Shown: positions 4,154 to 63,669 of the stretch, in pieces
Layout: each line of letters begins with the position of its first letter
Position numbering within the stretch: the first letter of the stretch is position 1
Assembly: GCA_001769655.1 (NCBI GenBank)
Contig: MEPC01000042.1
Location: forward strand, 219,125-283,124
Length of the DNA stretch: 64,000 nt
Direction: 5' to 3'
DNA from: Bacteroidetes bacterium RIFCSPLOWO2_12_FULL_37_12
GTDB lineage: Bacteria; Bacteroidota; Bacteroidia; 2-12-FULL-37-12
Made by a program: the position numbers and the translations under genes
The notes under the pieces: model-generated
The model's input: the letters and a program-made list of their open reading frames with translations, nothing else
Told to the model about the DNA's origin: nothing
The model's database searches: none

Positions 4154-4172
4154 GTTTGGAATATAAAACAAA

Positions 4173-4199: not shown

Positions 4200-4230
4200 T
4201 TTTTTAAAAAATTATTATATAGCTGAACAG

Positions 4231-5160: not shown

Positions 5161-5209
5161 AACAATATATTTTTGGAATAATTAAATTGAATTAATATCC
5201 AATCAGAAA

Positions 5210-5878
5210 TTAGAATATCCAGCCCAATCTGAGTTGACCATTAACATTTGGACCGAAGTTAAGGGTTGAACCTTGCTCTTCGTCTCTTGGAGCTACTGCG
5301 CCTTCGGCATCAGTACTTCTTTTTATTGTTGATTTCGATGTCATGGCAAAACCAAAACCTAATTCAGCTCCCAAATACGCGTGTTTTGTAAAATACCAGT
5401 CAAATCCGCAAGGAGCGTTTAATCCAATTCGGAGCCATCCATCTTTTCCAGTTTCAGTCATGGTATCTATTTTTTTGGATTTTGTCTGTGTTTTGCTTGT
5501 GCTGGTTTTCATACCAAAATCAACCACTACTCCGCAATATGGCGATAGACGGTCAGTGCCTGCCATGTGAAACTCAATACCGGGTGTCAAACCAAATGTA
5601 AAACTTGATTCGGTATCCTCCAGTTTGAGTGAATCTGTAGAATTATCATCATAATGAACTTTGCCTTCACTTGTCATCCCGATAAAAAGATTTGCTCTGT
5701 AAGCGCTCGTTCCTGAGAACATCCTAAATTGTAAGCCATTGATTCCAACCGGGCTTCCACTTAAGGGAGCAAATTGAAGTTCTATGGATTTATCTCCTGA
5801 ACCAGGTTTCATGTCTTGTGCTTGGTTAGAAAGTGCAATAGTTAAAATAACTATCAATAAGAAGAATGACTTTTTCAT
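5210..5878 (-). CDS. Outer-membrane beta-barrel protein
   Basis: 222 residues. Signal peptide MKKSFFLLIVILTIALSNQAQ, then alternating hydrophobic/polar strands with glycine and aromatic residues, and a C-terminal GQLRLGWIF ending in Phe, as in outer-membrane beta-barrels. Recurrent turns such as FGLTPGIEFHMAG and YLGAELGFGFAM suggest an 8- to 10-strand porin-like or OmpA-like barrel. First gene of a likely two-gene operon with the lipoprotein downstream. Exact role unknown; could also be a structural outer-membrane protein. Confidence 0.75.
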   Translation of the reverse strand: MKKSFFLLIVILTIALSNQAQDMKPGSGDKSIELQFAPLSGSPVGINGLQFRMFSGTSAYRANLFIGMTSEGKVHYDDNSTDSLKLEDTESSFTFGLTPGIEFHMAGTDRLSPYCGVVVDFGMKTSTSKTQTKSKKIDTMTETGKDGWLRIGLNAPCGFDWYFTKHAYLGAELGFGFAMTSKSTIKRSTDAEGAVAPRDEEQGSTLNFGPNVNGQLRLGWIF

Positions 5879-6241
5879 TTTTTTTTTAGTTTTTTCAGAG
5901 AGTTTTTTCTCCGATTAGTTTATAGGAAGTTTTATATTTTTTAAAAGCTTACTATTCTCACGAATGATTATCACTTTCAAAAAACTAAGAAAATCAGACC
6001 TCCATTAACAGATTTTCCCATAAAAACTTTGCAAAAATATGTTATTTTCATTAAAACACAAGTTTTTTATTAAAAAAATTGCCTTTATGAAATAATTGAT
6101 GGCTTTCTGCGTTAATTAAATACAGGGGGGTTAATAATTTTATCTTACTAAAGTGACCTATTCAATGGTACTTTTATATTTCTAAATTAAAAAATATTAA
6201 ATTTCTTTTGAAAATTTAACCTGTATTAACATCTAATTTGC
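5879..6241. other. AT-rich divergent promoter region
   Basis: 363 nt between two divergent envelope genes. It holds the predicted minus-strand promoter at 6032-6061. For the plus-strand gene only a weak TACTTTTA near 6170 is seen. No small gene or RNA recognised. Confidence 0.5.
6032..6061 (-). promoter_or_regulatory. Predicted promoter for the beta-barrel/lipoprotein pair
   Basis: Minus strand: TTG (complement of 6059-6061), 19-bp spacer, TATTTTTG (complement of 6032-6039), an exact consensus match; it implies a leader of about 150 nt. Confidence 0.5.
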
Positions 6242-45751: not shown

Positions 45752-47098
45752 TCAAACTGTCTGACTGAATTTTTTTTCTTTCATAGATTTTTTATAGTAG
45801 TACCTGTCAAACAAAAGACATATATTTCGTAGAAACAATTTTCCTTCCTCCAATACATTGATTTTTTTCCCGTTGACGGAAATCAAACCATCTTCTTCCA
45901 TAGTTTTTAATTGTTTTGTAAATTTATCCTGAATGAAAAATTCATCCTCCCCAATCTCTGTTTCCATACTACACATTATTTCCTGGATTTGCTTTCTGCT
46001 TTTAATGTCTTCATCGCTCAATTTATGACCTGTAATAACAGGTAGAATTCCATTATTTATTTCTGATTCATATTTTTTAGCTTCTTTTACGTTTTGAATA
46101 AAACCGGTTACAGCATCGCTGATGGAAGAAGCGCCTAATCCAATTAATAATCTGGATGCGCGCGGGGTATATCCCATAAAATTTCTATTCAGCCGTTTTT
46201 CACGAAAAGCAGTAAATAATTCATCTTCCGGTAATGCAAAATGATCCATTCCGACTTCTTTATATCCCATTTCGTTTAATAATTTTCTTCCCAATAAATG
46301 TAAATTCATTTTCACTTCCTGCGAGGGAAGAAACGGTTCAAGTGATTTCTGAGCCGGTTTAAGCCATGGAACATGCGCATAACTGTAAAATGCAATTCTA
46401 TCCGGTTTTAATTCACTCACTTTCTGCATTGTAAGATGAATACTTTTTTCATTTTGAGATGGCAACCCATATATTAAATCATAATTCACAGAAGTAAACC
46501 CTGAGCTTCTTGCATCGTCTGTAATTTTTTTTATTTGCTCAACAGTTTGTATCCGGTTAATCCTCTTCTGAACAGCCGGGTCAAAATCCTGAATTCCCAA
46601 ACTAATGCGGTTAAATCCCAATCGGGAAAGAGACGATAAATGTTCATTCATTGTGTTGTCAGGATGTCCTTCGAAACTATAATCGTGTTGTTTAGGCATC
46701 TCTGCACTATTTAAAATGCCATTGACAAGCCGTTCCAATTGTTCCGAATGAAAAAAAGTAGGAGTCCCACCCCCTAAATGAAATTCACGAATGATGGGAA
46801 TTTCAGAAAAATTTTTCAAATACATTTCCCACTCCTTTAAAATAGCGTTGACATAAAACTCTTCCACCGAATGATTTTTTGTTATGTAGCGGTTACAACC
46901 GCAATACGTGCATAAATTTTCACAAAAGGGTAAATGCACGTAAAGGTGTATGCCCTCTTTTTTATTGGTTTTGGAGAATGACTCTTTTACCATCGTGAAC
47001 CATTCATCTGATTTTTTAATTTTATTATTCCAGAAAGGTATTGTGGGGTAGCTAGTATATCTTGGAGCGGGAATGTTATACTTCAGATAATTGAACAT
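45752..47098 (-). CDS. hemN: Oxygen-independent coproporphyrinogen III oxidase
   Basis: 448 residues, close to E. coli HemN. Radical-SAM enzyme that makes protoporphyrinogen IX without oxygen in heme synthesis. Iron-sulfur/SAM motif YVHLPFCENLCTYCGCNRY (C-x3-C-x2-C-x-C, the extra Cys typical of HemN and absent from HemW), then FHLGGGTPTFF and the GFNRISLGIQDFD segment. Second gene of a two-gene operon, 2 bp after a small gene. The promoter carries the shared TGACAAATGTCA palindrome, consistent with induction under low oxygen. Confidence 0.93.
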   Translation of the reverse strand: MFNYLKYNIPAPRYTSYPTIPFWNNKIKKSDEWFTMVKESFSKTNKKEGIHLYVHLPFCENLCTYCGCNRYITKNHSVEEFYVNAILKEWEMYLKNFSEIPIIREFHLGGGTPTFFHSEQLERLVNGILNSAEMPKQHDYSFEGHPDNTMNEHLSSLSRLGFNRISLGIQDFDPAVQKRINRIQTVEQIKKITDDARSSGFTSVNYDLIYGLPSQNEKSIHLTMQKVSELKPDRIAFYSYAHVPWLKPAQKSLEPFLPSQEVKMNLHLLGRKLLNEMGYKEVGMDHFALPEDELFTAFREKRLNRNFMGYTPRASRLLIGLGASSISDAVTGFIQNVKEAKKYESEINNGILPVITGHKLSDEDIKSRKQIQEIMCSMETEIGEDEFFIQDKFTKQLKTMEEDGLISVNGKKINVLEEGKLFLRNICLLFDRYYYKKSMKEKKFSQTV

Positions 47099-47100: not shown

Positions 47101-47316
47101 TTATGAAATTTTCTCAAATAACCGGAAAAATCTTCGATTAAATTTAGTTTTTTGTTCTTCAGAAGAATAACCGGAAATTTTTTTCTGATACCTTTCAATA
47201 ATAAAGTTTACTAAATGGTCGGAAACAGAATAAATTATTTTCTTCTCATCTTCATTGAGCTTAATGAATTGATTTTTAACCTCTTTCGCGGGAATGTTTT
47301 TTAAGGTTTCAAACAT
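47101..47316 (-). CDS. Small conserved-looking protein preceding hemN
   Basis: 71 residues (MFETLKNIPAKEVKNQFIKL...), lysine-rich and mostly alpha-helical, without signal peptide, Cys or known motif. It ends 2 bp before the hemN start, and its start abuts a GGGGTATA-type repeat. The tight spacing and shared promoter suggest a role tied to anaerobic heme synthesis or its regulation, but I do not recognise the family. Confidence 0.65.
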   Translation of the reverse strand: MFETLKNIPAKEVKNQFIKLNEDEKKIIYSVSDHLVNFIIERYQKKISGYSSEEQKTKFNRRFFRLFEKIS

Positions 47317-47406: not shown

Positions 47407-47414
47407 CAAAGGTA
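47407..47414 (-). promoter_or_regulatory. -7 box of the small gene-hemN operon
   Basis: TACCTTTG on the minus strand (complement of 47407-47414); no good TTG at -33, as expected for an activator-dependent promoter. Confidence 0.5.
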
Positions 47415-47457
47415 ACATCATCTCCTACCCCTGAACATGATGTTGCTTAATGTAAAT

Positions 47458-47473
47458 AATGACAAATGTCATT
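47458..47473. promoter_or_regulatory. Predicted Crp/Fnr-family operator shared by hemN and the CMD gene
   Basis: Palindrome AATGAC-AAAT-GTCATT. Its centre is ~43 bp upstream of the expected CMD start site and ~64 bp upstream of the expected hemN-operon start, the standard class II and class I activator distances. The same TGACAAATGTCA core lies upstream of nifJ. Confidence 0.6.
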
Positions 47474-47495
47474 TATTTGCTATTTATGAAAATGG

Positions 47496-47503
47496 TACTT
47501 TTG
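47496..47503 (+). promoter_or_regulatory. -7 box of the CMD-like gene
   Basis: TACTTTTG, exact TAnnTTTG match; -33 region poor (TTT at 21 bp). Confidence 0.5.
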
Positions 47504-47531
47504 CGATAAACTATATAAACCAACAAACAGC

Positions 47532-47849
47532 ATGAAAAATCAACCACCCAAAAGGTTTACAATATTTATGGACAAATACCCTGAAATTGCCAACGCATAT
47601 TCTGCGTTAGGCGATTCTGTACATAAGGCAGGTCCTTTGGATGAAAAAACGAGGGCATTGATAAAAGTAGCAATCTCCGGTGGTGCCAGAATGGAAGGTG
47701 CCTTTCATTCTCATATTAAAAAAGCAAGAATGCTCGGTGTCACCAGAGAAGAAGTTGAGCATATTGTATTTCTTACATTACCAACCCTTGGTTTTCCTTC
47801 CATGATGACGCTTCTTTCCTGGGTAGAAGACCTCTATAAGAAAAAATAA
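47532..47849 (+). CDS. Carboxymuconolactone-decarboxylase (CMD)/AhpD-like protein
   Basis: 105 residues, one CMD-like domain. Seen: LDEKTRALIKVAISGGARMEGAFHSHIKKARMLGVTREEVEHIVFLT, the typical CMD core with the conserved His. The CxxC peroxidase pair of AhpD is absent (no Cys at all), so redox disulfide chemistry is unlikely. Proteins of this type are often of unknown function, and small CMD proteins are frequently found near anaerobic or stress genes. Its promoter carries the shared palindrome with hemN and nifJ, which suggests a role under low oxygen. Confidence 0.85.
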   Translation: MKNQPPKRFTIFMDKYPEIANAYSALGDSVHKAGPLDEKTRALIKVAISGGARMEGAFHSHIKKARMLGVTREEVEHIVFLTLPTLGFPSMMTLLSWVEDLYKKK

Positions 47850-47861
47850 TTATTTGGTTTA

Positions 47862-47930
47862 TATACCAAAGGTAAAGACGTTTTTGAAAAAATAATGAAT
47901 AACATATAACATTAAATAACTAAGTATGTT
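47862..47930. repeat. TATACCAA-family element fragment (copy 2)
   Basis: Begins TATACCAAAGGTAAA and matches the minus strand of the 4007-4153 element over about 65 bp, including AATGAATAACATATAAC. The other terminal repeat is not found, so it looks truncated. Confidence 0.6.
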
Positions 47931-47968
47931 TACCATGTGCCAATCCACTACCTGAAAAAGTAAACAAC

Positions 47969-47981
47969 ATGACAAATGTCA
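47969..47981. promoter_or_regulatory. Predicted Crp/Fnr-family operator of nifJ
   Basis: ATGACAAATGTCA, 12 bp identical to the core of 47458-47473. Its centre is ~64 bp before the predicted start site. Confidence 0.6.
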
Positions 47982-48026
47982 GGGATTTTTTTGAGAAATC
48001 TCATTAAAAAAAGTATTAAATGTAAT

Positions 48027-48034
48027 TACATTTG
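48027..48034 (+). promoter_or_regulatory. -7 box of nifJ
   Basis: TACATTTG, exact match; no TTG at -33. Leader about 80 nt to the ATG at 48121. Confidence 0.5.
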
Positions 48035-48120: not shown

Positions 48121-51100
48121 ATGCCACAGTCAATCGTTGACGGCAACGAAGCCGCCGCAAAAATCGCTTTCAAATTAAGTGAGATTTGTGCTATTTATCC
48201 CATTACTCCTTCCTCTCCAATGGGTGAATGGTGTGATATCTGGGCTACAGAAGGAAAACGAAATATCTGGGGAGCCATTCCCGAAATCATGGAAATGCAG
48301 AGTGAAGCAGGAGCCGCCGGTTGTATTCATGGAGCATTGCAAGCTGGTTCATTAGCAACAACCTTTACCTCGTCTCAAGGACTTTTGCTTATGATTCCTA
48401 ATATGTATAAAATGGCAGGCGAACTTCTCCCCGCTGTTTTACATGTTGCCGCCCGGACTATTGCCACTCACGCACTCTCTATTTTTGGCGACCACAGCGA
48501 TGTCATGTCCACCCGCATGACCGGCTTTGCATTACTCAGTTCAAGCTCCGTTCAATCTGTCGCCGATTTAGCGCTGATTTCTCATGTAGTCGCACTTAAA
48601 TCACGACTTCCTTTTTTACATTTTTTTGACGGATTCAGGACTTCCCATGAAGTAATGAAAATTTCAATTCCTGACGATGACATTATTAAAAAACTTATCC
48701 CTGAAAAAGAACTTTTTGAATTCAGAAAAAATGCACTTACTCCCGAACACCCTGTAGTCAGAGGTACTTCCCAGAATCCGGATGTTTATTTTCAGGCGCG
48801 AGAAACTATTAACCCCTATTATTCCCGTTGCCCTGAACTGGTAGAAGAAACCATGAAAGAGTTTACAGCATTGACAGGTAGGAAATATAAATTATTTGAA
48901 TATTATGGCAGTGCCACTGCTGAACGCATTATCATCATCATGGGATCCGGGAGTGAAACAGTGGAAGAGACCATTGACTATTTGAATCAACAAGGCGAAA
49001 ATACAGGAATGGTCAGAGTAAGATTGTATAGGCCATTTTCAATAACTCACTTTTTAACTTCCATTCCATCTACCGTAAAAAAAATAGCGGTCATGGACCG
49101 GACAAAGGAACCCGGTGCATCCGGAGAGCCATTATATCAGGATGTCATTACTTCTTTCGCTGAAAAAGGAATTGAAAGTGGATTTGAAAAAATGCCTGTG
49201 ATTACCGGAGGAAGATATGGTCTTTCTTCAAAAGAATTTTCTCCTGCTATGATAAAGGCAATTTTTGATGAACTTAAAAAGGATGTTCCAAAAAATCATT
49301 TCACCATTGGCATAACCGATGATGTCAGCTTTACTCATCTGCCATTCGATACTCATTTTTCTATTGAGTCCTCCACAGATTTTCGTGGGAAATTTTATGG
49401 TCTTGGCGCTGATGGCACGGTTAGCGCAAACAAAAATTCAATAAAAATAATTGGCGAGAACACCGCAAATCATGTTCAGGGTTATTTTGAATATGATTCA
49501 AAAAAATCAGGGTCTTATACCGTTTCCCATTTGCGCTTCAGTGAAAAACCCATCCGTTCCATTTACTTAATTGAGCAACCCAATTTCATTGCCTGCCACC
49601 AGGAACAATTTCTTGATAAATTCAACATGCTCTCGGATGCCGCATCAGGGGCTGTATTTTTATTAAACACCCGGATCTCTGAAAATCAAATCTGGAATTC
49701 TCTTTCTGTAGAATTGCAGAAAATAATGCTGTTGAAAAACATTCGTTTCTATGTTATTGACGGATATAAAATTGCCAGAGAATCCGGATTGGGTACGCGT
49801 ATCAACACCATTATGCAGACCTGTTTTTTTGCTATAGCAGGAATTATTCCGCAAGAGGATGCGATGAAGTTAATTAAAAACACAATCCGTAAATCCTACA
49901 GTCAGAAAGGAGAAAAAATTGTGGAACAAAACCTGAATGCCGTGGATGTAACCCTTTCGGGGTTGAAGGAGGTTAAGAAAGAGGGACTAACTTCCCAAAA
50001 AACACATACAACTAATTTTAACGGCGCTTCTGAATTTTTCATAAATGTTTGCAGTAAAATACTTGAACGTAACGGAGACGAGTTGCCGGCAAGCTGTTTC
50101 TCACCTGATGGAACTTTTCCGTCAGGCACTACACAATGGGAAAAAAGAAATATCGCTGATGAAGTACCGGTTTGGGATGAGTCGTTATGTATTCAATGCA
50201 ATAAATGTGTCATTGTTTGCCCCCATGCCGCCATCCGCGCTAAAGTTTTCAACCAAGGTGTGTTAAACGGAGTGCCGGATACATTTAAAAAAACTGCGTT
50301 CAAAGGAAAGGACTTCGGCGCCGATATTTTATATTCCCTTCAGGTAGCTGTGGAGGACTGCACCGGTTGTAAAATTTGTGTAGAAGTTTGTCCTGCTTCT
50401 TCTAAAGAAAATGAAAATCATAAGGCGATAAACATGTCGCCGAATACTACGGACGTCAAAAATAAAGAGGGATTGAACCTTGATTATTTTTTAAAAATTC
50501 CTGAAATCAACCGGGAGTTAATAAAAATGAATTCCGTGAAATTTTCCCAGTTTCTGCGACCCTTGTTTGAATATTCTGGTGCCTGTTCGGGATGTGGCGA
50601 AACCCCTTACGTAAAATTAGTGACACAATTATTCGGTGACCGTGCACTGGTAGCCAATGCTACCGGTTGTTCATCCATTTATGGGGGAAATTTACCCACT
50701 ACGCCATGGACGACCAATGAAGAAGGCAGAGGACCTGCCTGGGCAAACTCACTATTTGAAGATAATGCTGAGTTTGGGCTGGGCTTCCGTTTGTCTGCCG
50801 ATAAAAAGTATGAGTTTGCTTGTGAACTTTTGAAAAACGCAAGTGCTGAGTTGGGTGACACTCTTGTAAATGAAATCATAAACTCAGCGCAGAATAATGA
50901 AGCTGAAATAGCAAGACAAAGAAACCGGGTTCAATTGCTAAAGGAAAAATTATCTGATGCCGCTATTCCATCTTCTTCCCAGTTATTATCGCTGGCAGAT
51001 TATCTTGTTAAAAAAAGTGTTTGGATAATTGGAGGAGATGGATGGGCTTATGATATTGGTTTTGGTGGATTAGATCATGTAATTGCGTCGGGTAGAAACG

Positions 51101-51663
51101 TCAATATTCTTGTGCTTGATACGGAGGTTTATTCCAACACAGGCGGGCAAACTTCAAAATCCACTCCGCGTTCATCGGTGGCGCGCTTCTCTGCTTCCGG
51201 CAAAACTACTCCCAAAAAGGACCTGGGATTGATGATGATGGGATATAAAAATGCTTACATTGCCAGTGTGGCTATGGGCGCCAATGATGCGCAGGCAGTA
51301 AAGGCAATCCTGGAAGCGGAAAATTTTAATGGACCCTCTTTGATTATTGCTTATTCCCATTGTATCGCTCATGGAATAACTGATATTTCAAAAGGTCTCC
51401 AACATCAAAAAACTGCGGTGGATGCCGGTTACTGGCTTTTGTACCGTTATAATCCCGATAGAATGTTAAAAGGAGAAAATCCGTTAATGCTTGACAGTAA
51501 AGACCCGTCGCTTACTTTTAAGGATTTTGCTACGTTGGAAAACCGGTTTCATTCATCCATTAAAAAGGATCCCGTTCATAAAGAAAAACTTCACACACTG
51601 GAACAGCAGGATATTAGTTTGAGATGGGAGTTTTATAAAATGTTGTCGAAAGTACCCTCGTAG
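48121..51663 (+). CDS. nifJ: Pyruvate:ferredoxin (flavodoxin) oxidoreductase, single-chain
   Basis: 1180 residues, the normal fused alpha-gamma-delta-beta enzyme. Converts pyruvate and CoA to acetyl-CoA, CO2 and reduced ferredoxin in the cytoplasm. N-terminal domain: IYPITPSSPMGEWCDIWATEGKRNIWG; mid-chain two 4Fe-4S motifs, CIQCNKCVIVCPHAAI and CTGCKICVEVCPASS; TPP domain: YSGACSGCGETPYVKL, then GDGWAYDIGFGGLDHV and VYSNTGGQTSKSTPRS. All cofactor sites look complete. It would supply low-potential ferredoxin, possibly to the Ehr-like complex in this window. Carries the shared palindrome in its promoter and is followed by the Crp/Fnr gene. Confidence 0.96.
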   Translation: MPQSIVDGNEAAAKIAFKLSEICAIYPITPSSPMGEWCDIWATEGKRNIWGAIPEIMEMQSEAGAAGCIHGALQAGSLATTFTSSQGLLLMIPNMYKMAGELLPAVLHVAARTIATHALSIFGDHSDVMSTRMTGFALLSSSSVQSVADLALISHVVALKSRLPFLHFFDGFRTSHEVMKISIPDDDIIKKLIPEKELFEFRKNALTPEHPVVRGTSQNPDVYFQARETINPYYSRCPELVEETMKEFTALTGRKYKLFEYYGSATAERIIIIMGSGSETVEETIDYLNQQGENTGMVRVRLYRPFSITHFLTSIPSTVKKIAVMDRTKEPGASGEPLYQDVITSFAEKGIESGFEKMPVITGGRYGLSSKEFSPAMIKAIFDELKKDVPKNHFTIGITDDVSFTHLPFDTHFSIESSTDFRGKFYGLGADGTVSANKNSIKIIGENTANHVQGYFEYDSKKSGSYTVSHLRFSEKPIRSIYLIEQPNFIACHQEQFLDKFNMLSDAASGAVFLLNTRISENQIWNSLSVELQKIMLLKNIRFYVIDGYKIARESGLGTRINTIMQTCFFAIAGIIPQEDAMKLIKNTIRKSYSQKGEKIVEQNLNAVDVTLSGLKEVKKEGLTSQKTHTTNFNGASEFFINVCSKILERNGDELPASCFSPDGTFPSGTTQWEKRNIADEVPVWDESLCIQCNKCVIVCPHAAIRAKVFNQGVLNGVPDTFKKTAFKGKDFGADILYSLQVAVEDCTGCKICVEVCPASSKENENHKAINMSPNTTDVKNKEGLNLDYFLKIPEINRELIKMNSVKFSQFLRPLFEYSGACSGCGETPYVKLVTQLFGDRALVANATGCSSIYGGNLPTTPWTTNEEGRGPAWANSLFEDNAEFGLGFRLSADKKYEFACELLKNASAELGDTLVNEIINSAQNNEAEIARQRNRVQLLKEKLSDAAIPSSSQLLSLADYLVKKSVWIIGGDGWAYDIGFGGLDHVIASGRNVNILVLDTEVYSNTGGQTSKSTPRSSVARFSASGKTTPKKDLGLMMMGYKNAYIASVAMGANDAQAVKAILEAENFNGPSLIIAYSHCIAHGITDISKGLQHQKTAVDAGYWLLYRYNPDRMLKGENPLMLDSKDPSLTFKDFATLENRFHSSIKKDPVHKEKLHTLEQQDISLRWEFYKMLSKVPS

Positions 51664-51756: not shown

Positions 51757-52521
51757 ATGAAATCAAAATACGAAACAAATTCCGTCAAAGAAAATCCTCC
51801 CAAAAACGGGGGCAATTCACGAACGTTGTCTGAATCGTGCAAACACACGAATTGCATGTTATTCTCTTACTGCCCGCATAGCCAGTCGGGACAAACTTTT
51901 CTGAAAAAAAATGCAATTATATTTTACCATTACAAAAAAGGACATCAAATCATTGTAGAGGACAATCCGGTGATGGGAATCTTTTTTATACAAAAAGGGA
52001 AGGTGAAAGTGTATCGCTCTTTCGCAAAAGGACATGACCTTATACTCCGGTTTGCAAAGGACGGTGAGGTAGTAGGGCATCGTGGTTTTGGTTCTGAAAT
52101 GATTTATCCCATTTCTGCCGCCGCGCTTGAAGATGCAACGATGTGTTTCATTCCCAAAGATGATTTTTATCAACTGTTGCATCACTTCCCAAAATTGTCT
52201 TTCACCATTCTTCTTTTTTATGCCGACGAGCTCAAGCGTATTGAATCACGTTTTATGAATATGTCGAAAATGACAGTAAAAGAAAAAACTGTGGATGCGT
52301 TATTAGAGATAAAGAAGGTATTTGGCATGGGGCAAAAATCACCTTTATTATTAAATGCAGAATTATTTCGGAAAGATATTGCCGACTTTGCCGGAATTTC
52401 TCCGGAACAATTAATTGGGCAACTAAAGTCCTTTAAAAGTGAGAATTTGATTCACGCGGAGGGGCGGAAGATTTGGTTGAATGACGTAAAGGCGCTGGAG
52501 GATATGGTGGGGGGGTTTTGA
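51757..52521 (+). CDS. Crp/Fnr-family transcriptional regulator
   Basis: 254 residues. Cyclic-nucleotide-binding-like beta-roll ~50-165 (MGIFFIQKGKVKVYRSFAKGHDLILRFAKDGEVVGHRG), dimer helix, and C-terminal winged HTH (LFRKDIADFAGISPEQLIGQLKSFKSENLI). The N-terminus has three Cys (C28, C33, C39: SCKHTNCMLFSYC), which may bind a redox-sensing Fe-S cluster as in Fnr, although the spacing differs and a fourth ligand is not obvious. Located 90 bp after nifJ. It is the natural candidate to bind the TGACAAATGTCA palindromes in the hemN, CMD and nifJ promoters. Regulation of those genes is inferred. Confidence 0.85.
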   Translation: MKSKYETNSVKENPPKNGGNSRTLSESCKHTNCMLFSYCPHSQSGQTFLKKNAIIFYHYKKGHQIIVEDNPVMGIFFIQKGKVKVYRSFAKGHDLILRFAKDGEVVGHRGFGSEMIYPISAAALEDATMCFIPKDDFYQLLHHFPKLSFTILLFYADELKRIESRFMNMSKMTVKEKTVDALLEIKKVFGMGQKSPLLLNAELFRKDIADFAGISPEQLIGQLKSFKSENLIHAEGRKIWLNDVKALEDMVGGF

Positions 52522-55083: not shown

Positions 55084-55135
55084 GGCATTTCTAAAAATTC
55101 AGCCAAACGTCTCCCTGTTTTTTTCTACAAACCTA

Positions 55136-55165
55136 ATTTTTGTCACTACCATCGCTGACAAAAAT
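55136..55165. promoter_or_regulatory. Perfect inverted repeat before the cytochrome/molybdoenzyme promoter
   Basis: Arms ATTTTTGTCA (55136-55145) and TGACAAAAAT (55156-55165) with a 10-nt spacer, only 2 bp upstream of the TTG box; centre about 53 bp before the expected start. Probable operator for an activator. Confidence 0.6.
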
Positions 55166-55167
55166 CA

Positions 55168-55198
55168 TTGATATGTCTGCCACCTGTGAATACTTTTG
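55168..55198 (+). promoter_or_regulatory. Promoter of the molybdoenzyme cluster
   Basis: TTG (55168-55170), 20-bp spacer, TACTTTTG (55191-55198): exact consensus. Confidence 0.7.
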
Positions 55199-55261: not shown

Positions 55262-56869
55262 ATGAGCAAAAAATTTTTCCTTCTGCTTATTGGGTTTAGC
55301 GCATATTTTCTTTTCGGTTCTTTTATCATTCAACCGAAATACTGGTTGAATAAAGAAGAAAATAAGAAATCAAACCCTACCGTTGAAACTGAAACATTAT
55401 ATAATACTTATTGCACTCCTTGCCACGGAAGTCAGGGGGATGGAGAAGGTGAGCTTGCTTATTTGCTGTATCCAAAACCTCGTAATTTCACTAAAGGGAT
55501 GTTCAAACTAAGAAGCACCCCAAGTGGTCAAATGCCATCGGATGATGATTTGTTTAAAACGATAAAAAACGGTATGGCAGGTACCGCCATGCCTTCTTTT
55601 ACTTTTTTAAAAGAAGATGAAATTAAGTCGCTTGTGGATTTTGTAAAAAAACTATCTCAAAAATGCCCGCCAAATCAGCCCTGCGAAAATTATTTTACAG
55701 GCGCTGTCACCAACCCTGTGAAAGTACCCGAACCGTTAGCTTCTTCTGCTGAATTAGTAGAAAAAGGAAAATCCGTTTATACTTCATTGGGATGTGATAA
55801 ATGCCACGGTGAAAAAGGAATTGGCGACGGTCCATCGGCGCTCACTCTGAAAGACGGATGGGGATACCCGATACCCGTCCGGGATTTTACGAGTGGTACG
55901 TATGTAGGAGGGGGTTCTCCCAAAGACCTGTACCTTCGCTTTATCACCGGAATGAGTGGCACTCCGATGCCTTCTTTTGAAAGCGCTATTAATGAAATGG
56001 CAGGAACTAATGATGCAGACAGGCAAAAATACATTTGGGGGCTTATTCATTATATTAAAAGTTTGGAAGTAAAAAATGCGAGCACACAAAATACAATTTC
56101 CCCTGAGAATAATATTATTGAATGTCAGAAATCATCTGCAATTACTGATACCGATAAACTTTTTGGCAATTCCAAAATCTGGAGTAATGCGAAGACGTAT
56201 TCTATTCCGGTGAACCGTCTATGGCAAAAGACGAGCAACAATCAATTGCTCGTTTCTGTATCTGCCATTTATGATGGGCAAAAAGTGGCGGTGAAAATGG
56301 TTTGGAATGACCCCGATAAAACTGATAATACTTACAGAATTCAGGAATTTCAGGACGGTTCCGCCGTTCAATTTTCCTTGACAGATAAACCCGGTTTTCA
56401 TGGAATGGGTAGTAAAGACAGTCCCGTTGATATCTGGTTCTGGCACTCCGACTGGCAGGCACGGATTGGGAAAGATAATAATCAACTGTACGCACATAGC
56501 TCTTATGCAGATGGACACACAACCGATTATCCTCAATCAATTCATCCAAATGCGCTTTCAACCGGAAGAGATGCTGGTAATAATCTGTCGCAGGATATTA
56601 AATCAAGTCCGGTAGAAGCAGTATCTGCAAAAGGTCCCGGAACATTGAAATCAAAACCAACTATAAATCAAAATGTCACCGGCAAAGGCGTATGGGCGGA
56701 AAATAAATGGACTGTAGTGTTAATTAGAAATATGTCGGGCGGCAAAGAGGAAGTGCAAATCGCAAATGGAAAAGAAATACCTGTTGCGTTTGCAATATGG
56801 AATGGAAGCATGAATGACCGGAACGGACAGAAAATGGTATCAACGTGGTATAAATTGAAGGTGCGGTAA
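55262..56869 (+). CDS. Diheme cytochrome c fused to a heme-b gamma subunit (type II DMSO reductase family)
   Basis: 535 residues. N-terminal membrane anchor/signal (KFFLLLIGFSAYFLFGSFI). Two cytochrome c domains: C51-T-P-C54-H55 and C178-D-K-C181-H182, each followed by a Met-ligand motif (GTAMPSF, GTPMPSF). Residues ~300-535 match the ethylbenzene-dehydrogenase-type gamma subunit that binds heme b (VSAIYDGQKVAVKMVWNDPDKT, DGSAVQFSLTD, FHGMG, DIWFWHSDWQA). It would carry electrons between the Mo/Fe-S enzyme and the periplasmic or membrane pool. First gene of the cluster. Fused c/b gamma subunits resemble NxrC-like proteins rather than ClrC or NarI. No NarI-type membrane quinone subunit is present. 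Confidence 0.87.
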   Translation: MSKKFFLLLIGFSAYFLFGSFIIQPKYWLNKEENKKSNPTVETETLYNTYCTPCHGSQGDGEGELAYLLYPKPRNFTKGMFKLRSTPSGQMPSDDDLFKTIKNGMAGTAMPSFTFLKEDEIKSLVDFVKKLSQKCPPNQPCENYFTGAVTNPVKVPEPLASSAELVEKGKSVYTSLGCDKCHGEKGIGDGPSALTLKDGWGYPIPVRDFTSGTYVGGGSPKDLYLRFITGMSGTPMPSFESAINEMAGTNDADRQKYIWGLIHYIKSLEVKNASTQNTISPENNIIECQKSSAITDTDKLFGNSKIWSNAKTYSIPVNRLWQKTSNNQLLVSVSAIYDGQKVAVKMVWNDPDKTDNTYRIQEFQDGSAVQFSLTDKPGFHGMGSKDSPVDIWFWHSDWQARIGKDNNQLYAHSSYADGHTTDYPQSIHPNALSTGRDAGNNLSQDIKSSPVEAVSAKGPGTLKSKPTINQNVTGKGVWAENKWTVVLIRNMSGGKEEVQIANGKEIPVAFAIWNGSMNDRNGQKMVSTWYKLKVR

Positions 56870-56874
56870 CATTG

Positions 56875-57015
56875 GTTATTGGGCATTGGTTTTTGGGCAT
56901 TGGTCATTTGACATTTGACATTGTTCATTTGACATTGTTCATTGCTCAAACATCCAATATCCAACAAACAACGAACAACAAACAACGAAGAACAAACAAC
57001 AAAACAACGAACAAC
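56875..57015. repeat. Low-complexity leader: GGCATTGGT/GACATTGTTCATTT then ACAACGAACA iterations
   Basis: Two back-to-back low-complexity blocks fill the gap between the cytochrome and alpha genes: T/G-rich words to about 56950, then A/C-rich AACAACGAACAAC words up to the ATG. The track upstream of 57020 is therefore not a natural N-terminus. Confidence 0.7.
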
Positions 57016-57019
57016 AACC

Positions 57020-60000
57020 ATGGAAGAATCCTCAAAACAAAAAAACATCAGCCGGAAAAAATTTCTCACTCTCGGCTTAATCGGCGGTGGTGGCACTGTC
57101 ATGATGCTGAGCGCTTTCAAAAACATGCACTTCCTCGGCACGCTGGATGACATAGAAAATCCCCTTGCTTTTTATCCGAGTCGTGATTGGGAAAAGGTTT
57201 ACCGTAATCAATATGCGTGTGACAGCTCCTTCACTTTTATCTGTTCTCCCAATTGCACTCACGAATGTCGTATGCGTGCCTTTGTCCGTAACGGGGTCAT
57301 GATGCGTGCTGAACAAAACTACGACAATCATAAAATTTCAGATCCGCAGGGAAATAAATCAACGCATGCATGGAATCCAAGAGGATGTTCAAATGGTTTT
57401 ACTTTCCATAGAAGAGTGTATGGAAGTTATCGTCTTAAATATCCTATGGTAAGAAAAACATGGAAACAATGGGCAGATGATGGATTTCCTGAATTAACAC
57501 CGGAAAATAAAGCTAAGTATAAATTTACAGCCCGTGCCACTGATACATTTGTTCGGTTAAGCTGGGACGAAGCACATACCTATCTGGCAAAGGGTTTAAT
57601 AAACATAGCCACACGTTACAGCGGAGAAGAAGGAAAAAAATTGCTACTTGCCCAGGGTTATCCTGAAGAAATGTTAACCCATTGGGATGGTGCGGGGACC
57701 CGGACAATTAAACTCAGAGGTGGAATGGGATTACTTGGTGTCATTGGAAAATATGGTGCATACCGTTTTTCCAATACCCTTTCCATCATGGATACTCACA
57801 TACGCAAAGTGGATCACGAAAAAGCACACGGAGGTAGAATCTGGTCAAATTATACCTGGCATGGTGACCAGGCGCCAGGTCATCCCTTTGTTCACGGACT
57901 ACAGGGTTCTGACTGCGATTTTAATGATTTACGCAATAGTAAATTACATATCGGTCTCGGTAAAAATTTAATTGAAAACAAACGAGCCGATAATCATTTT
58001 ATGACTGAAATTATGGAACGGGGAGGAAAAATTGTTGTCATCACACCGGAATACAGCCCTTCGGCTACTCGGGCAAATTACTGGCTCACCATACGGCCAA
58101 ATACCGATGCCGCTTTGTTGCTGGGTGTCACAAAAATCATAATAGATAATAAATGGTATGATGAAAAATTTATCAAAGAATTTACAGACATGCCCATTTT
58201 AATCAGAAAAGATAATTTGAAACGACTCAACGCTGAACAAGTTATAAAAGGATATAAAAGGGGTTTATCAAAAGAAGGCGCCAGTTTCAAAATTCATGGC
58301 TTGAAAGAAGAACAATATAAAATGATTGGGGATTATATGGTTTTTGATGAAAATACAAAAACGGTTCAGCCCATCACCCGTGATCAGGTTGGAACTTATT
58401 TAGCTAAACTAAATCCAAAAATTGACTGGGAAGGTAAAGTAAAATTAGCCGACGGAAAAGAAATTGAAGTACTCACCATATTCACTGCCTATAAAAATAT
58501 TCATTTGAAAGATTATTCATTAGAACAGGTAGTTGAAATTACGCATGCTCCCAAAGAGCTCATCCAACAACTTGCTAAAGATATTGCAACCATGAAGCCC
58601 GTTGCCATTCACATTGGTGAGGGCATCAATCACTGGTTCCATGCAACCGAAGTTAATCGTGCCACTTATCTTCCGCTGATGCTTACCGGAAACATTGGAA
58701 TTCCCGGAGCCGGAAGTCATACATGGGCAGGAAATTATAAAGCAGGTCTTTTCCATGGATCAGAAGAAACCGGTCCCGGATTTAAAGGATGGATTTCCGA
58801 AGATCCGTTTGAAGCTAACCTGAATCCTTTTGCAAAAGGAAAAGAAATACACGCACACGGATATACGCAGGATGAAGAGCCCGCTTACTGGAATAGTGAT
58901 GACAGACCACTCATGGTAAACACACCGAAATATGGAAAGAAAGTATTTACCGGAAAAACACACATGCCTACTCCTACAAAAGCATTGTGGCACACGAACG
59001 TAAATCTTCTCAACAATGCCAAGTGGTGTTACGAGATGATTAAAAATGTAAATCCTAACATTGAAATGATAGTGTCACAGGATATTGAGATGACATCCAC
59101 CTGCGAGTATGCTGACTTCGTTTTACCGGCAAACAGTTGGGTCGAGCAACAAACCTATGAGTTGACTGGTGCATGTTCCAACCCGTTCTTACAAATCTGG
59201 AAAGGCGGACTAAAACCGGTTTTTGATTCAAAGGACGATGTTAAAATCTGGGCAGATACCGCAAAAAAATTAGGAGAAATATATAACGACAAACGCTTTG
59301 AAGAATATTGGAAATTTGCACTGGAAGGTAAAACTGAAGTTTATATTGACCGTCTTCTCGATTCAAGCATTCCCACTCAAGGATATACAACTGCCGATAT
59401 TATGGCAGGAAAATATGGTGAACCGGGTGCCGCTTTATTCCAATTCAGAACCTATCCGCGTAATCCATTTTTTGAACAGATTAAAGACAGTATTCCGTTT
59501 TTTACTCCTACCGGCCGTCTGCAATCATATAACGACGAACCCGAAGTAATTGAATACGGTGAGAATTTTATTGTTCACAGAGAAGGACCGGAAGCAACTC
59601 CCTACCTTCCAAATGTAATTGTATCTGCAAATCCACTCATCCGTCCCGAAGATTATGGGATTTCTCGCGAAGCAATGACTCCGGAAGAAAGACAAGCAAG
59701 AAATATAAAACTTCCATGGTCTGAAGTCAAAAATACCAAAAATCCTCTATGGGAAAAAGGATTTCATTTTTATTGCTTCACTCCGAAAACAAGACACGCA
59801 ACTCATTCTTCATGGCAGGTAACCGATTGGCAATTTCTTCTCAACAATCCGTTTGGTGATCCATGGAGGACTGACAAACGACAACCCGGTGTAGGAGAAC
59901 ATACAATATATATGAATCCAAAAGCTGCGCAGGATTTAGGAATTGAGGATGGGGATTATGTATATGTAGATGCTGATCCACAAAACAGGCCTTACAAAGG

Positions 60001-60481
60001 ATGGTCAGCCAGTGACCCGTTCTACAAAGTGGCACGATTGAAATTGCGTATGCGTTTTAATCCATCCTATCCTTATCATTGCATAATGATGAAACACGGA
60101 GCGTACATTGCCACTGAACGATCTGTAAAAGCACATGAAACAAGATCTGATGGAAGAGCATTATCAGAAGATACAGGGTATCAGGCGAGTTTCCGTTATG
60201 GCTCACAGCAATCTCTCACTTTTGGCTGGTTGATGCCCATGCATCAATTGGATAGTTTATTTCATAAAGCAAAAGCAAAGGTCGGATTCATTTTCGGTGG
60301 TGAAGCAGACAATCATGCCGTCAATACGGTTCCAAAAGAAACATTGGTAAGAGTGACACTTGCAGAAAAAGGCGGATTGGAAGGGAAAGGCAGATTAGAA
60401 GTTGTAAACACCGGCTACACACCCGGCAACGAAAGTGAATATATGCAACGATATATAAACGGGGAATTGGTGACGGTTTGA
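57020..60481 (+). CDS. Molybdopterin (type II DMSO reductase family) alpha subunit, Nxr/Nar/Pcr-like
   Basis: 1153 residues from the ATG at 57020; an earlier frame only reads repeats. Twin-arginine-like leader S11-R-K-K-F-L then a hydrophobic stretch (LGLIGGGGTVMML), so probably exported folded; RK replaces RR. Fe-S ligands C75-x3-C79-x3-C83 and C123 (ICSPNCTHECRMRAFVRNG; NPRGCSNG). Downstream HRRVYGSYRLKYPMVRKTWKQWADDGFP and the Mo-site region SNYTWHGDQAPGHP with an Asp (D283) aligned to the NarG/PcrA Mo ligand. The pattern is closest to NxrA-type enzymes. The substrate (nitrite, nitrate, chlorate, selenate, hydrocarbon or other) is not readable. Partner genes for gamma, beta, chaperone and a cupredoxin surround it. 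Confidence 0.9.
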   Translation: MEESSKQKNISRKKFLTLGLIGGGGTVMMLSAFKNMHFLGTLDDIENPLAFYPSRDWEKVYRNQYACDSSFTFICSPNCTHECRMRAFVRNGVMMRAEQNYDNHKISDPQGNKSTHAWNPRGCSNGFTFHRRVYGSYRLKYPMVRKTWKQWADDGFPELTPENKAKYKFTARATDTFVRLSWDEAHTYLAKGLINIATRYSGEEGKKLLLAQGYPEEMLTHWDGAGTRTIKLRGGMGLLGVIGKYGAYRFSNTLSIMDTHIRKVDHEKAHGGRIWSNYTWHGDQAPGHPFVHGLQGSDCDFNDLRNSKLHIGLGKNLIENKRADNHFMTEIMERGGKIVVITPEYSPSATRANYWLTIRPNTDAALLLGVTKIIIDNKWYDEKFIKEFTDMPILIRKDNLKRLNAEQVIKGYKRGLSKEGASFKIHGLKEEQYKMIGDYMVFDENTKTVQPITRDQVGTYLAKLNPKIDWEGKVKLADGKEIEVLTIFTAYKNIHLKDYSLEQVVEITHAPKELIQQLAKDIATMKPVAIHIGEGINHWFHATEVNRATYLPLMLTGNIGIPGAGSHTWAGNYKAGLFHGSEETGPGFKGWISEDPFEANLNPFAKGKEIHAHGYTQDEEPAYWNSDDRPLMVNTPKYGKKVFTGKTHMPTPTKALWHTNVNLLNNAKWCYEMIKNVNPNIEMIVSQDIEMTSTCEYADFVLPANSWVEQQTYELTGACSNPFLQIWKGGLKPVFDSKDDVKIWADTAKKLGEIYNDKRFEEYWKFALEGKTEVYIDRLLDSSIPTQGYTTADIMAGKYGEPGAALFQFRTYPRNPFFEQIKDSIPFFTPTGRLQSYNDEPEVIEYGENFIVHREGPEATPYLPNVIVSANPLIRPEDYGISREAMTPEERQARNIKLPWSEVKNTKNPLWEKGFHFYCFTPKTRHATHSSWQVTDWQFLLNNPFGDPWRTDKRQPGVGEHTIYMNPKAAQDLGIEDGDYVYVDADPQNRPYKGWSASDPFYKVARLKLRMRFNPSYPYHCIMMKHGAYIATERSVKAHETRSDGRALSEDTGYQASFRYGSQQSLTFGWLMPMHQLDSLFHKAKAKVGFIFGGEADNHAVNTVPKETLVRVTLAEKGGLEGKGRLEVVNTGYTPGNESEYMQRYINGELVTV

Positions 60482-60500
60482 TGTAACGGTCGCATTTATT

Positions 60501-60752
60501 ATGGCAGAAAAAAAATTTGAAGACGACGATCCCATGTTGCTCAATGCAGTAATCATGGAAGATGTTAACCCTGAAATACAGGTAAAAATAGTGATTGAAG
60601 AATTTATCATCAGCGGTTTCAGCAAAGATGAAATATTCTCACTTTTTACAAATCCATTTTATCGCGGGGCAAATTTATTATACAAGAAAGTCGGAAAAGA
60701 GAGGGTCGAGGAGATGATTAAAGAATGTTTTGGAAATTGGAAATTAGTATAA
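60501..60752 (+). CDS. 83-residue protein between alpha and beta subunit genes
   Basis: Small, acidic-N-terminus, helical protein (MAEKKFEDDDPMLLNAVIMEDVNPEIQVKIVIEEFIISGF), no signal peptide or Cys. It has the motif FTNPFYRGANLLYKKVG and ends in FGNWKLV. Located 19 bp after the alpha stop and 91 bp before the beta start, so co-transcribed. Position suggests an assembly or maturation role for the Mo enzyme. I do not recognise the family; a real gene is supported by its place and tight spacing. Confidence 0.75.
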   Translation: MAEKKFEDDDPMLLNAVIMEDVNPEIQVKIVIEEFIISGFSKDEIFSLFTNPFYRGANLLYKKVGKERVEEMIKECFGNWKLV

Positions 60753-60759
60753 ACACACT

Positions 60760-60796
60760 TTCACCCCTCTCCTTTTAGGAGAGGGGCTGGTGTGAA
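60760..60796. repeat. REP-like CCCCTCTCC hairpin (copy 2, inverted)
   Basis: Stem CCCCTCTCC / GGAGAGGGG with a TTTTA loop, with flanks TTCAC and GTGTGAA; followed by a T-run. Inverted copy of 17890-17927. It could weaken read-through between the small gene and the beta gene. Confidence 0.75.
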
Positions 60797-60843
60797 GTTT
60801 TTTTAGAAATTAAAAATTATTAATAAATCTTAAATATAAAACA

Positions 60844-62151
60844 ATGGCAAAAGTATATAACTGGCAACTCGGAAGAGAAATGGATTATCCTTACGAGGCA
60901 AAATATCCTGCTCTTCAGTTTGCCGCTATTTTCAACACCAATCGTTGTATTGGTTGTCATACCTGTTCCATGGCTTGTAAAAGCACCTGGACTTTTTCGG
61001 ATGGGCAGGAATACATGTGGTGGAATAATATAGAAACAAAACCTTACGGAGGTTATCCACAGTTTTGGGATATGAAAATTCTTAAACTTCTTGATTCTGC
61101 GCATGTAAGTCAGGAAAAAGAAATGACATGGAATACTGATAAGAAAGACGTAAAAAAAGCTCCTTACGGGCAGTATGATGGAATGACTATTTTCGAGGCA
61201 GTTCAGCATGAGAAACCGGAAGAAGGACAATCACGGGTTCTTGGGTATTTACCGCAGGATCATGAGTGGTCAAAACCAAATATTCATGAAGATGCGTCTC
61301 CCATCAACACAAAAGAGCACGATGCCATGGGATTTGCAAAAGAAGGCGTTAAACTACCGGTACACGATTCATTCTTTTTTTATTTACAACGGATTTGCAA
61401 TCATTGCCAATATCCGGCATGTCTTGCCGCTTGTCCAAGAAAAGCAATTTATAAACGTCCCGAAGATGGGGTTGTACTAATAGATCAGGAGAGATGCAGA
61501 GGATATAGAAAATGCAATGAAGCTTGTCCATACAAAAAACCCATGTACAATGGTAAAACGAAAGCATCTGAAAAATGCATAGCTTGTTATCCACGATTGG
61601 AAGGAAAAGATAATATTATCAGCCCCGAAGGAGTACCGGTTGAAACCCGTTGTATGAGCGCCTGTGTTGGAAAAATACGCTTGCAGGGTTTGGTTAAACT
61701 GGACTCAAACGGTTTGTGGGAAAAAGATAGTAGCAATCCACTATATGCACTGATTCATGAGGAAAAAATTGCATTGCCTTTATATCCTCAGTTTGGCACT
61801 GAACCAAATATGTATTACATTCCTCCTCGATGGGCACCGAGAAATTACCTTATGCAAATGTTTGGACCCGGTGTACAGCAGTCCATTGACAATTATACAT
61901 ATCCTACGCGGAGAACCCTTGCAATTTTACAGTTATTCAGAGCACAACGGGAAATAATTTATAAATTTGAAACGAAAGAAGGTCCAAAAATTTATGAGAG
62001 AGAAGTTACCCTATCCGATGGAACAAAAAAAATGTTGGAGGTTTTTGATGACACGGCTATTGGATATAATAAAAACGGAAAAGAATGTGTGCGAGTCACG
62101 GTGCAGGAGCCGGCTTTTGAACGGAGTGCAAAGTTTTTGAATTCTATTTAA
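60844..62151 (+). CDS. Four-cluster Fe-S beta subunit (NxrB/NarH/PcrB-like)
   Basis: 435 residues, no signal peptide; expected to travel with the alpha subunit. Cluster motifs in order: C35-I-G-C-H-T-C-x3-C45 (NTNRCIGCHTCSMACKSTW), RICNHCQYPACLAACPRKAI, RCRGYRKCNEACPYKK and SEKCIACYPRL...RCMSACVGKIRLQG. In the third, Tyr replaces a Cys (NarH has Trp), as expected for a [3Fe-4S] site. NNIETKPYGGYPQFWDMKIL is a family signature. Passes electrons from alpha to the gamma heme protein. Downstream of a REP hairpin; the next gene has its own promoter. Confidence 0.92.
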   Translation: MAKVYNWQLGREMDYPYEAKYPALQFAAIFNTNRCIGCHTCSMACKSTWTFSDGQEYMWWNNIETKPYGGYPQFWDMKILKLLDSAHVSQEKEMTWNTDKKDVKKAPYGQYDGMTIFEAVQHEKPEEGQSRVLGYLPQDHEWSKPNIHEDASPINTKEHDAMGFAKEGVKLPVHDSFFFYLQRICNHCQYPACLAACPRKAIYKRPEDGVVLIDQERCRGYRKCNEACPYKKPMYNGKTKASEKCIACYPRLEGKDNIISPEGVPVETRCMSACVGKIRLQGLVKLDSNGLWEKDSSNPLYALIHEEKIALPLYPQFGTEPNMYYIPPRWAPRNYLMQMFGPGVQQSIDNYTYPTRRTLAILQLFRAQREIIYKFETKEGPKIYEREVTLSDGTKKMLEVFDDTAIGYNKNGKECVRVTVQEPAFERSAKFLNSI

Positions 62152-62164
62152 ATTGCTCTTTTCA

Positions 62165-62195
62165 ATGTTTATTTAAGTTTTTGGTATTATCTTTG
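62165..62195 (+). promoter_or_regulatory. Predicted promoter for the cupredoxin gene
   Basis: ATG (62165-62167) in place of TTG, 20-bp spacer, TATCTTTG (62188-62195), exact -7 box. Start site about 62201. Confidence 0.5.
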
Positions 62196-62243
62196 CGGCT
62201 CCGTCACGTTTTATTATTAATAAACCAATTAAACCAAAAAAAA

Positions 62244-62975
62244 ATGAAAATGAACGTTATTACTTCAGCAGTATTACTCACCCTTTGCCTGAGTACTGCT
62301 ACAGATTCTACTTATGCAGGAAATAATGGAAATACGGTAGCCGGTGGCTCTGTTTCCGGTACTGTAAAATTTGAAGGTACCGCTCCTAAGCCAAGACCTA
62401 TAAATATGGTGGCAGACAAAGTTTGTGCTTCGCAACACACTTCTACTGTCTTCTCTGAAGATGCGGTCATCAGTTCCACAAATACACTTAAAAATGTATT
62501 TGTATATATAAAAGATTTTAAAGGAACTGCCCCTGCTCCAAAAGGTGCTGTTTCACTTACTCAGTCCGGTTGTATATATAAACCACATGTTTTGGGATTA
62601 ATGGTAGGACAGAAACTTGAAATTACGAACGATGACGCATTATTGCATAATTTACATGGAACTCCATCTGTAAATAAAGAATTTAATGTGGGACAACCCA
62701 AAAAAGGGATGAAGAATGAATTTACATTTGACAAAGAAGAAGTGGGTATTCCGATAAAATGTGATGTTCATCCCTGGATGAAGTCCTATCTTCATGTTCT
62801 GAAGCATCCTTATTTTGCCGTTACAGATGAAAATGGAAAATTCACTATCAGTGGTGTACCGGCAGGAACATACACTGTTGAAGCATGGCACGAAAAATAT
62901 GGCACCAAAACCATGACCATAAAAGTGACTGACGGCGGAAGTGCTATGGCAGATTTTTCTATGTCGAAAAAATAG
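62244..62975 (+). CDS. Secreted cupredoxin with carboxypeptidase-regulatory-like C-terminal domain
   Basis: 243 residues from the ATG at 62244; a TTG start at 62181 lies before the promoter start and is rejected. Signal peptide 1-25. Residues ~35-190 form a type-1 copper domain: H135 or H138 (LLHNLHGT), C173, H176 and M179 in IKCDVHPWMKS give the blue-copper ligand set H...C-x2-H-x2-M. Residues ~190-243 (FAVTDENGKFTISGVPAGTYTVEAWHEKYG) form a regulatory-like Ig domain. Likely soluble electron carrier for the Mo enzyme. Copper binding is inferred from the ligand pattern. Confidence 0.85.
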   Translation: MKMNVITSAVLLTLCLSTATDSTYAGNNGNTVAGGSVSGTVKFEGTAPKPRPINMVADKVCASQHTSTVFSEDAVISSTNTLKNVFVYIKDFKGTAPAPKGAVSLTQSGCIYKPHVLGLMVGQKLEITNDDALLHNLHGTPSVNKEFNVGQPKKGMKNEFTFDKEEVGIPIKCDVHPWMKSYLHVLKHPYFAVTDENGKFTISGVPAGTYTVEAWHEKYGTKTMTIKVTDGGSAMADFSMSKK

Positions 62976-62994
62976 AAGAAATTAATCACTCACC

Positions 62995-63669
62995 ATGCCA
63001 CAGCCCTCCATAGAAACATCCATTGCAAGAAGTAATTTGTACTTGTTCATTTCAGTGCTTTATTCCCAACCTGGAAATGACAGATTTGAGATGCTACTGG
63101 AAGATGAATTTAAATTGAAAATTAAATCCGCTGTAACCTCACTTTTTCCTACATCCCAACATGGAAATCTGAACAACATTATTTCAGAAATCTTCCAGTT
63201 AGCATCATCAGAAAAATCCCAATTATCTGATAATTACTTTTTACACTTTGGTCATACTTTGTCGAAAGAAACAGTCCCTTACGAATTGGAACAGTTACCT
63301 CAAACAGAAATTTTCAATAAGACCGACCGGTTGGCAGACATACTTGGTTTTTATAATGCTTTTGGGATTCAACCGGATATGCCCGAACGTGGTGACCATA
63401 TTTCCATGCAGACAGAATTTCTTTCTTTTCTGTTATTAAAAATGGCGCTGGCTATTGAAAAAGGCGAAGACATTACAAATCTTCAAACCTGTGAAAAAGC
63501 TTTTCATTCATTCTGGAATGAACATTTTTCGAATTGGATTCAGTTTTATATACCCAAAACAAAAAATTTCACCTCCTCCCCTTTTTATCTGAAAGCAAAT
63601 GCGTTTCTTGAGGAGTTTTTCTTGTTTGAGAAACAACTTGTTGAAACCGCAACTCCCCTACCCTGCTGA
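62995..63669 (+). CDS. TorD/NarJ-like molybdoenzyme chaperone
   Basis: 224 residues, all-helical, no signal. Motif ERGDHISMQTEFLSFLLLKMA (residues ~130-150) is the conserved E-x-x-DHI-x-x-E-type element of TorD/DmsD-family chaperones. Also YELEQLPQTEIFNKTDRLADILGFYNAFG upstream of it. It would bind the alpha subunit, support Mo-cofactor insertion and proofread export. Starts 20 bp after the cupredoxin stop, same operon. Shorter than NarJ families but typical of type II DMSO reductase clusters. Confidence 0.85.
   Translation: MPQPSIETSIARSNLYLFISVLYSQPGNDRFEMLLEDEFKLKIKSAVTSLFPTSQHGNLNNIISEIFQLASSEKSQLSDNYFLHFGHTLSKETVPYELEQLPQTEIFNKTDRLADILGFYNAFGIQPDMPERGDHISMQTEFLSFLLLKMALAIEKGEDITNLQTCEKAFHSFWNEHFSNWIQFYIPKTKNFTSSPFYLKANAFLEEFFLFEKQLVETATPLPC

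Follow-up and report, generated by a model that had tools for sequence, protein, structure and literature searches.

Two copies of the palindrome TGACAAATGTCA lie at three promoters of anaerobic genes in a Bacteroidia genome, and the sequences compared here make it very probable that the palindrome is the docking site of a Crp/Fnr-family activator that responds to low oxygen at Bacteroidota promoters, probably through an FNR-type sensor. An earlier, sequence-only reading had proposed a compact low-oxygen regulon with activator-type spacing. Genome-wide and cross-species tests strongly support both the regulon and the spacing, but not the compactness, as the sites also cover benzoyl-CoA reductase, had/oah, four of the six ferredoxin-oxidoreductase loci, cytochrome oxidases and a nitrate-reductase-like operon.

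Candidate operators and promoter boxes in the window

The 64,000-nucleotide stretch that we analysed (the window) carries TGACAAATGTCA at 47460-47471 and 47970-47981, where the earlier reading had put it at 47458 and 47969. It had also correctly assigned three promoters to these two copies, to which we add a fourth with the same grammar, at 55134-55198. The features are:

45752..47098 (−), hemN, oxygen-independent coproporphyrinogen III oxidase (TIGR00538, above cut-off)
47101..47316 (−), small protein of 71 aa that opens the hemN-side transcript
47407..47414 (−), −7 box TACCTTTG of the hemN-side promoter; dyad axis to box end 59 bp (class I position)
47460..47471, candidate Crp/Fnr-type operator TGACAAATGTCA, common to the divergent CMD (+) and hemN-side (−) promoters
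47496..47503 (+), −7 box TACTTTTG of the CMD promoter; dyad axis to box end 38 bp (class II position)
47532..47849 (+), CMD-family protein of 105 aa (PF02627)
47970..47981, candidate Crp/Fnr-type operator TGACAAATGTCA of nifJ
48027..48034 (+), −7 box TACATTTG of nifJ; dyad axis to box end 59 bp (class I position)
48121..51663 (+), nifJ, pyruvate:ferredoxin oxidoreductase (TIGR02176, above cut-off)
55134..55145, half-conserved tandem second candidate operator TAATTTTTGTCA, 22 bp upstream of TGACAAAAATCA; axis 59 bp from box end
55156..55167, candidate operator TGACAAAAATCA belonging to the NXR/nitrate-reductase-like operon (type II DMSO-reductase family); dyad axis to box end 37 bp
55191..55198 (+), −7 box TACTTTTG of the same operon
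55262..56869 (+), cytochrome c plus heme-b (gamma) subunit, type II DMSO reductase family, first gene of the operon

The boxes at CMD, the hemN side and nifJ all match TAnnTTTG, the consensus of the Bacteroidota −7 element (PMC7366714). On inspection, TTTG is missing 19-21 bp upstream of each of them, in line with the poor −33 boxes noticed earlier. The spacings first given as −43, −64 and −64 were right within 1-2 bp, the distances from dyad axis to box end being 38, 59 and 59 bp. With start sites as predicted, axis-to-box-end distances of 37-38 and 59 bp would correspond to class II and class I placement, respectively.

The NXR/nitrate-reductase-like operon (55262-63669) comprises heme-b/cytochrome c, Mo and Fe-S subunits, with a chaperone-like gene last. 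Before its Mo-subunit gene, repeated TTGACATT / TGACATTGTTCA units (56872-56945) resemble low-complexity repeats rather than operators.

Sites and spacing in the genome and in relatives

We searched the 3.94-Mb genome with the reversed pattern as control. The relaxed palindrome TGACAnnTGTCA occurs five times, against ~4.6 expected by composition and one for the control, and its one-mismatch copies are not enriched genome-wide (92 versus 84 for the control). The exact 12-mer TGACAAATGTCA, of which TGACCCGGGTCA is an inner-base variant, has four copies versus 1.1 expected (P = 0.026). All four precede genes, but the bare count is only mildly above chance; palindrome count alone is weak evidence, and the signal is carried by position and spacing. 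Of the five TGACAnnTGTCA copies a single one is coding, and its centre differs (TGACAACTGTCA).

The genes downstream of the four exact copies are oxygen-labile or anaerobic: CMD/hemN, nifJ, a korA-type 2-oxoacid:ferredoxin oxidoreductase on contig C1 (site 108 bp before the ATG) and bcrCBAD, encoding benzoyl-CoA reductase, on contig C9 (74 bp upstream). Copies with one mismatch stand upstream of a second kor operon on C21, at 105 bp, and of a por-type operon on C38, at 39 bp. A site is present at four of the six ferredoxin-oxidoreductase (PF01558) loci, all four of the pyruvate/2-oxoglutarate type, and absent at the other two, iorAB (iorB) and a vor-type locus, neither of that kind. Perfect TAnnTTTG boxes are found at five promoters, with axis-to-box-end distances of 38, 59, 59, 59 and 37 bp. 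The C21 and C38 sites were picked by sequence alone; the perfect boxes that accompany them, at 59 and 37 bp respectively, independently confirm both spacings. The korA promoter on C1 has no box at the expected spacing and one at 25 bp instead, and no recognisable box stands at the expected place in the bcr promoter of this genome.

A composite pattern, TGAY-N4-RTCA followed after 20-48 bp by TAnnTTTG, matched 23 times in the genome against once for its reversal, and a few of the matches lie in coding sequence (for example on C16). By matched length, the gap was 23 or 24 (axis at 37 or 38 bp) in seven and 45 (axis at 59 bp) in another seven. The composite marks the window promoter at 55134-55198 and a cytochrome oxidase operon on C33, both with tandem sites at 59 and 37 bp, as well as another oxidase (C19), a phasin-like gene and the had-oah genes of the benzoyl-CoA pathway on C21 (Had above cut-off). 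No hcp-like gene lies downstream of any of the listed sites in this genome.

The spacing recurs in relatives, which belong at closest to the same class. Exact TGACAnnTGTCA was mostly scattered in ten relatives picked by regulator similarity, indicating that the inner bases are not kept across species; the looser TGAC-N4-GTCA proved informative. In an unbiased scan of every tetramer dyad, run on the nifJ upstream regions of 29 relatives without the window itself, TGAC-N4-GTCA ranked first (4 observed, 0.04 expected); ATGA-N6-TCAT and TGAT-N4-ATCA, both forms of this same motif, came next. With the strict composite in 59 relatives, a gap of 23 (37-bp spacing) accounted for 38 of the 96 listed matches (P ~3e-30 versus an even spread), gaps of 24 and 45 for eight and seven, and 31 genomes had a composite with a gap of 23 or 24. 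The downstream genes, named by reading the sequences without a family scan, include fnr-like regulators themselves, cbb3 oxidase (ccoN), NarK-like transporters, RIC/YtfE, universal stress proteins (uspA) and cytochromes; to judge from these sequences, they are classical FNR/NNR targets. Few sites were found upstream of korA in relatives, with boxes in only three, at 35-36 bp, so kor control is not class-wide. Sites, spacing, conservation and target genes are thus established by computation.

Separately, genome G036 carries TGACAATTGTCA near MsrB and peroxiredoxin genes (L085, L087, L088) and 13 copies of TGACANNTGTCA against two for the control; this is perhaps a peroxide-type regulon with a look-alike palindrome.

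Candidate operators upstream of benzoyl-CoA reductase genes

A BcrB search gave at least 80 loci, mostly in Bacteroidota MAGs, with BcrB 72-85% identical:

L043 (contig C9) 9905-14900, bcrCBAD, ATP-dependent benzoyl-CoA reductase of the Bacteroidia genome; other loci L277-L356

The C9 genes match benzoyl-CoA reductase subunit models, B and D above cut-offs, A and C as best hits below theirs. Among the bcr records are some that bear the names Armatimonadetes, Competibacteraceae or KSB1, through mis-binning or transfer. Beside bcr on C9, a 4-hydroxybenzoyl-CoA-reductase-like Mo enzyme is encoded at 3679-7406 (minus strand); its alpha subunit is split over two ORFs, with a 2Fe-2S domain fused to the first half, possibly through a frameshift or an assembly error.

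We analysed the upstream regions of 74 operons from the matches listed, mostly from Bacteroidota MAGs. An unbiased dyad scan ranked ATGA-N6-TCAT first (35 versus 1.5 expected, P ~3e-35, a value that overstates the number of independent events as many of these genomes are interrelated) and TGAT-N4-ATCA second (29 versus 0.93 expected). TGAY-N4-RTCA is present in 48 of the 74 upstreams (null mean 1.8, maximum 5) and absent from 26. Where a perfect box lies within reach of the site, it does so at exactly 37 bp in all 11 cases; with one box mismatch allowed, 32 sites are at 37 bp, five at 59 bp and at most two at any other distance. Paired sites show a 22-bp step 14 times. The inner four bases are free, and A and T are favoured at the flanks. 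The dyad that comes first in the unbiased scans, ATGAY-N4-RTCAT, has the TGA core and N4 spacer of an FNR-type operator, to which class we assign it on sequence.

The regulator and the proposed mechanism

The sequence-only reading had singled out the Crp/Fnr gene that follows nifJ:

51757..52521 (+), Crp/Fnr regulator of 254 aa; Cys28/33/39 plus Cys130; recognition helix EQLIGQL

Its domain scores (PF00027, 63.9 bits; PF13545, 34.6 bits; both above gathering score) place the protein in the Crp/Fnr superfamily, with a predicted cNMP-binding-fold domain and a Crp-type HTH. The three N-terminal cysteines reported earlier are there, and a fourth, Cys130, falls in the alignment on the residue that A. 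fischeri FNR uses as its fourth cluster ligand. Their N-terminal spacing, C-x4-C-x5-C, differs from that of FNR, and the NCBIfam Fnr model scores 61.5 bits against a cut-off of 228. The recognition helix departs from E--SR: E217 Q L I G221 keeps the Glu and has lost the Ser and Arg, so we do not file the gene as a canonical FNR. Residue 221 is Arg or Lys in nearly all homologues and most paralogues. No site lies directly upstream of the gene, which starts 93 bp after nifJ. A related-loci search with this regulator as query returned no match, and an AlphaFold2 model built from a three-sequence alignment was poor (mean pLDDT 50.6) and was set aside.

This protein is a plausible binder of TGACAAATGTCA. 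However, the genome encodes six Crp/Fnr proteins above cut-off, other four-Cys paralogues among them, and we lean slightly towards one of these, most likely the C17 FNR or the canonical C33 FNR, as the reader of the same operators, which would be a variant of the FNR-type explanation and not exclusive of it. The C17 protein has four cysteines in its N-terminal region plus a central one and the helix EQVSKHL, and C33 has ETVIRLL; both retain the recognition-helix Arg/Lys that the window protein lacks. In its own promoter, the C17 gene has a site with one mismatch, whose perfect box stands at 37 bp; in another Bacteroidota genome (L327), bcrB is followed ~1.5 kb downstream by a regulator of the same subfamily (EQVSKYL). 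Together with Gly221, these two observations make adjacency to nifJ suggestive only. Conversely, the window gene comes directly after nifJ and may share its site-controlled promoter, and its protein keeps four Cys aligned with FNR. A bolder division of labour is doubtful, in which the nifJ-adjacent protein would be a specialised paralogue, its canonical recognition Arg lost, that reads the inner bases of TGACAnnTGTCA (always AAAT/ATTT here) and runs a dedicated 'low-potential electron plus anaerobic aromatics' sub-regulon (PFOR, KOR, benzoyl-CoA reductase, hemN), distinct from a general ATGAY-N4-RTCAT regulon of the other FNR paralogues.

It is unlikely that the regulator senses nitric oxide or nitrogen oxides, as DNR, NnrR or HcpR do, rather than oxygen. 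The HcpR operator of delta-proteobacteria and cyanobacteria, wyTTGACnnnnGTCAArw (TTGACnnnnGTCAA; PMC1274295), shows the same TGAC-N4-GTCA dyad, RIC/YtfE, narK and cytochrome c genes are among the targets in relatives, and the C17 paralogue adjoins a copper nitrite reductase gene. Yet the core targets here (nifJ, kor, bcr, had, hemN) encode oxygen-labile enzymes that have no link to NO, and an N-terminal Cys cluster plus a central Cys fits Fe-S oxygen sensing. HcpR regulons consist of hcp/frdX, whereas those described here consist of ferredoxin oxidoreductases, bcr, hemN and oxidases; Bacteroides HcpR2 reads GTAACnnnnGTTAC.

Very improbable is an unrelated dimeric factor outside the Crp/Fnr superfamily. 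The G036 palindromes preceding peroxiredoxin and MsrB genes suggest that similar sequences can have other readers; however, the 4-bp spacer and TGA core are those of FNR and HcpR operators, the site recurs in the promoters of fnr-like genes themselves, and seven relatives with no detectable regulator homologue hold one composite where 9.5 are expected (P = 8e-4). That the palindrome arose by chance and its copies are unrelated to regulation, as the near-compositional count of TGACAnnTGTCA and the unenriched degenerate copies might suggest, is contradicted by the fixed −7 box spacing in the histograms, the target identities and the cross-species conservation, and we consider it extremely improbable.

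For the FNR-type activator, we infer binding, activation and Fe-S sensing as follows. Without oxygen, a dimeric FNR-type protein with an Fe-S cluster would bind the operator, a Bacteroidota-type Crp/Fnr element (A)TGAY-N4-RTCA(T), and bring in RNA polymerase, carrying the phylum's primary sigma factor, at promoters where a good −7 box (TAnnTTTG) stands without a −33 box. The operator axis would sit at about −41 (class II) or, two helical turns higher, at about −62 (class I), sometimes at both in tandem sites 22 bp apart, and polymerase would be touched from either position, the simplest model at promoters without a −33 element. The genes switched on in this way would be those for oxygen-independent heme synthesis, for the ferredoxin oxidoreductases of pyruvate and 2-oxoacids and for the benzoyl-CoA pathway, which the oxidoreductases would feed with low-potential electrons; related sites would serve nitrate-type respiration and terminal oxidases. 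In Thauera, benzoyl-CoA reductase takes its electrons from ferredoxin reduced by 2-oxoglutarate oxidoreductase, and a similar supply here would explain the common control of kor and bcr.

The dyad class (HcpR TTGACnnnnGTCAA, PMC1274295) and class II FNR promoters are already known. The E. coli FNR box, TTGATnnnnATCAA at −41.5, shares the N4 dyad spacing, the TGA core and the class II/class I positions, and its regulator likewise has four Cys; the systems differ in half-site (ATGAC/ATGAT here, TTGAT in E. coli), promoter (a Bacteroidota −7 box versus −10/−35) and Cys spacing (x4/x5 versus x2/x5). The proposed class II position also matches that of the FNR-like AcpR, which acts at −41.5 on the Azoarcus bzd PN promoter (PMC6678401); like the activator proposed here, it is an FNR-family anaerobic activator of an ATP-dependent benzoyl-CoA reductase operon, but phylum, sigma factor, operator half-site and reductase subtype (bzd versus bcr) differ. 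The literature covered, which was partial and so gives weak evidence, contained no FNR box, operator of this kind or spacing rule for Bacteroidota, and nothing on bcr regulation in that phylum.

With promoters and a sigma factor unlike those of E. coli, Bacteroidota have been difficult subjects for predicting FNR-type regulation. The grammar offered here, ATGAY-N4-RTCAT with an axis-to-box-end distance of 37 or 59 bp to TAnnTTTG and a tandem step of 22 bp, is testable and lets low-oxygen regulons be read straight from Bacteroidota genomes. It places the anaerobic benzoyl-CoA degradation of uncultured Bacteroidota, with matching electron-supply enzymes, under predicted low-oxygen control.
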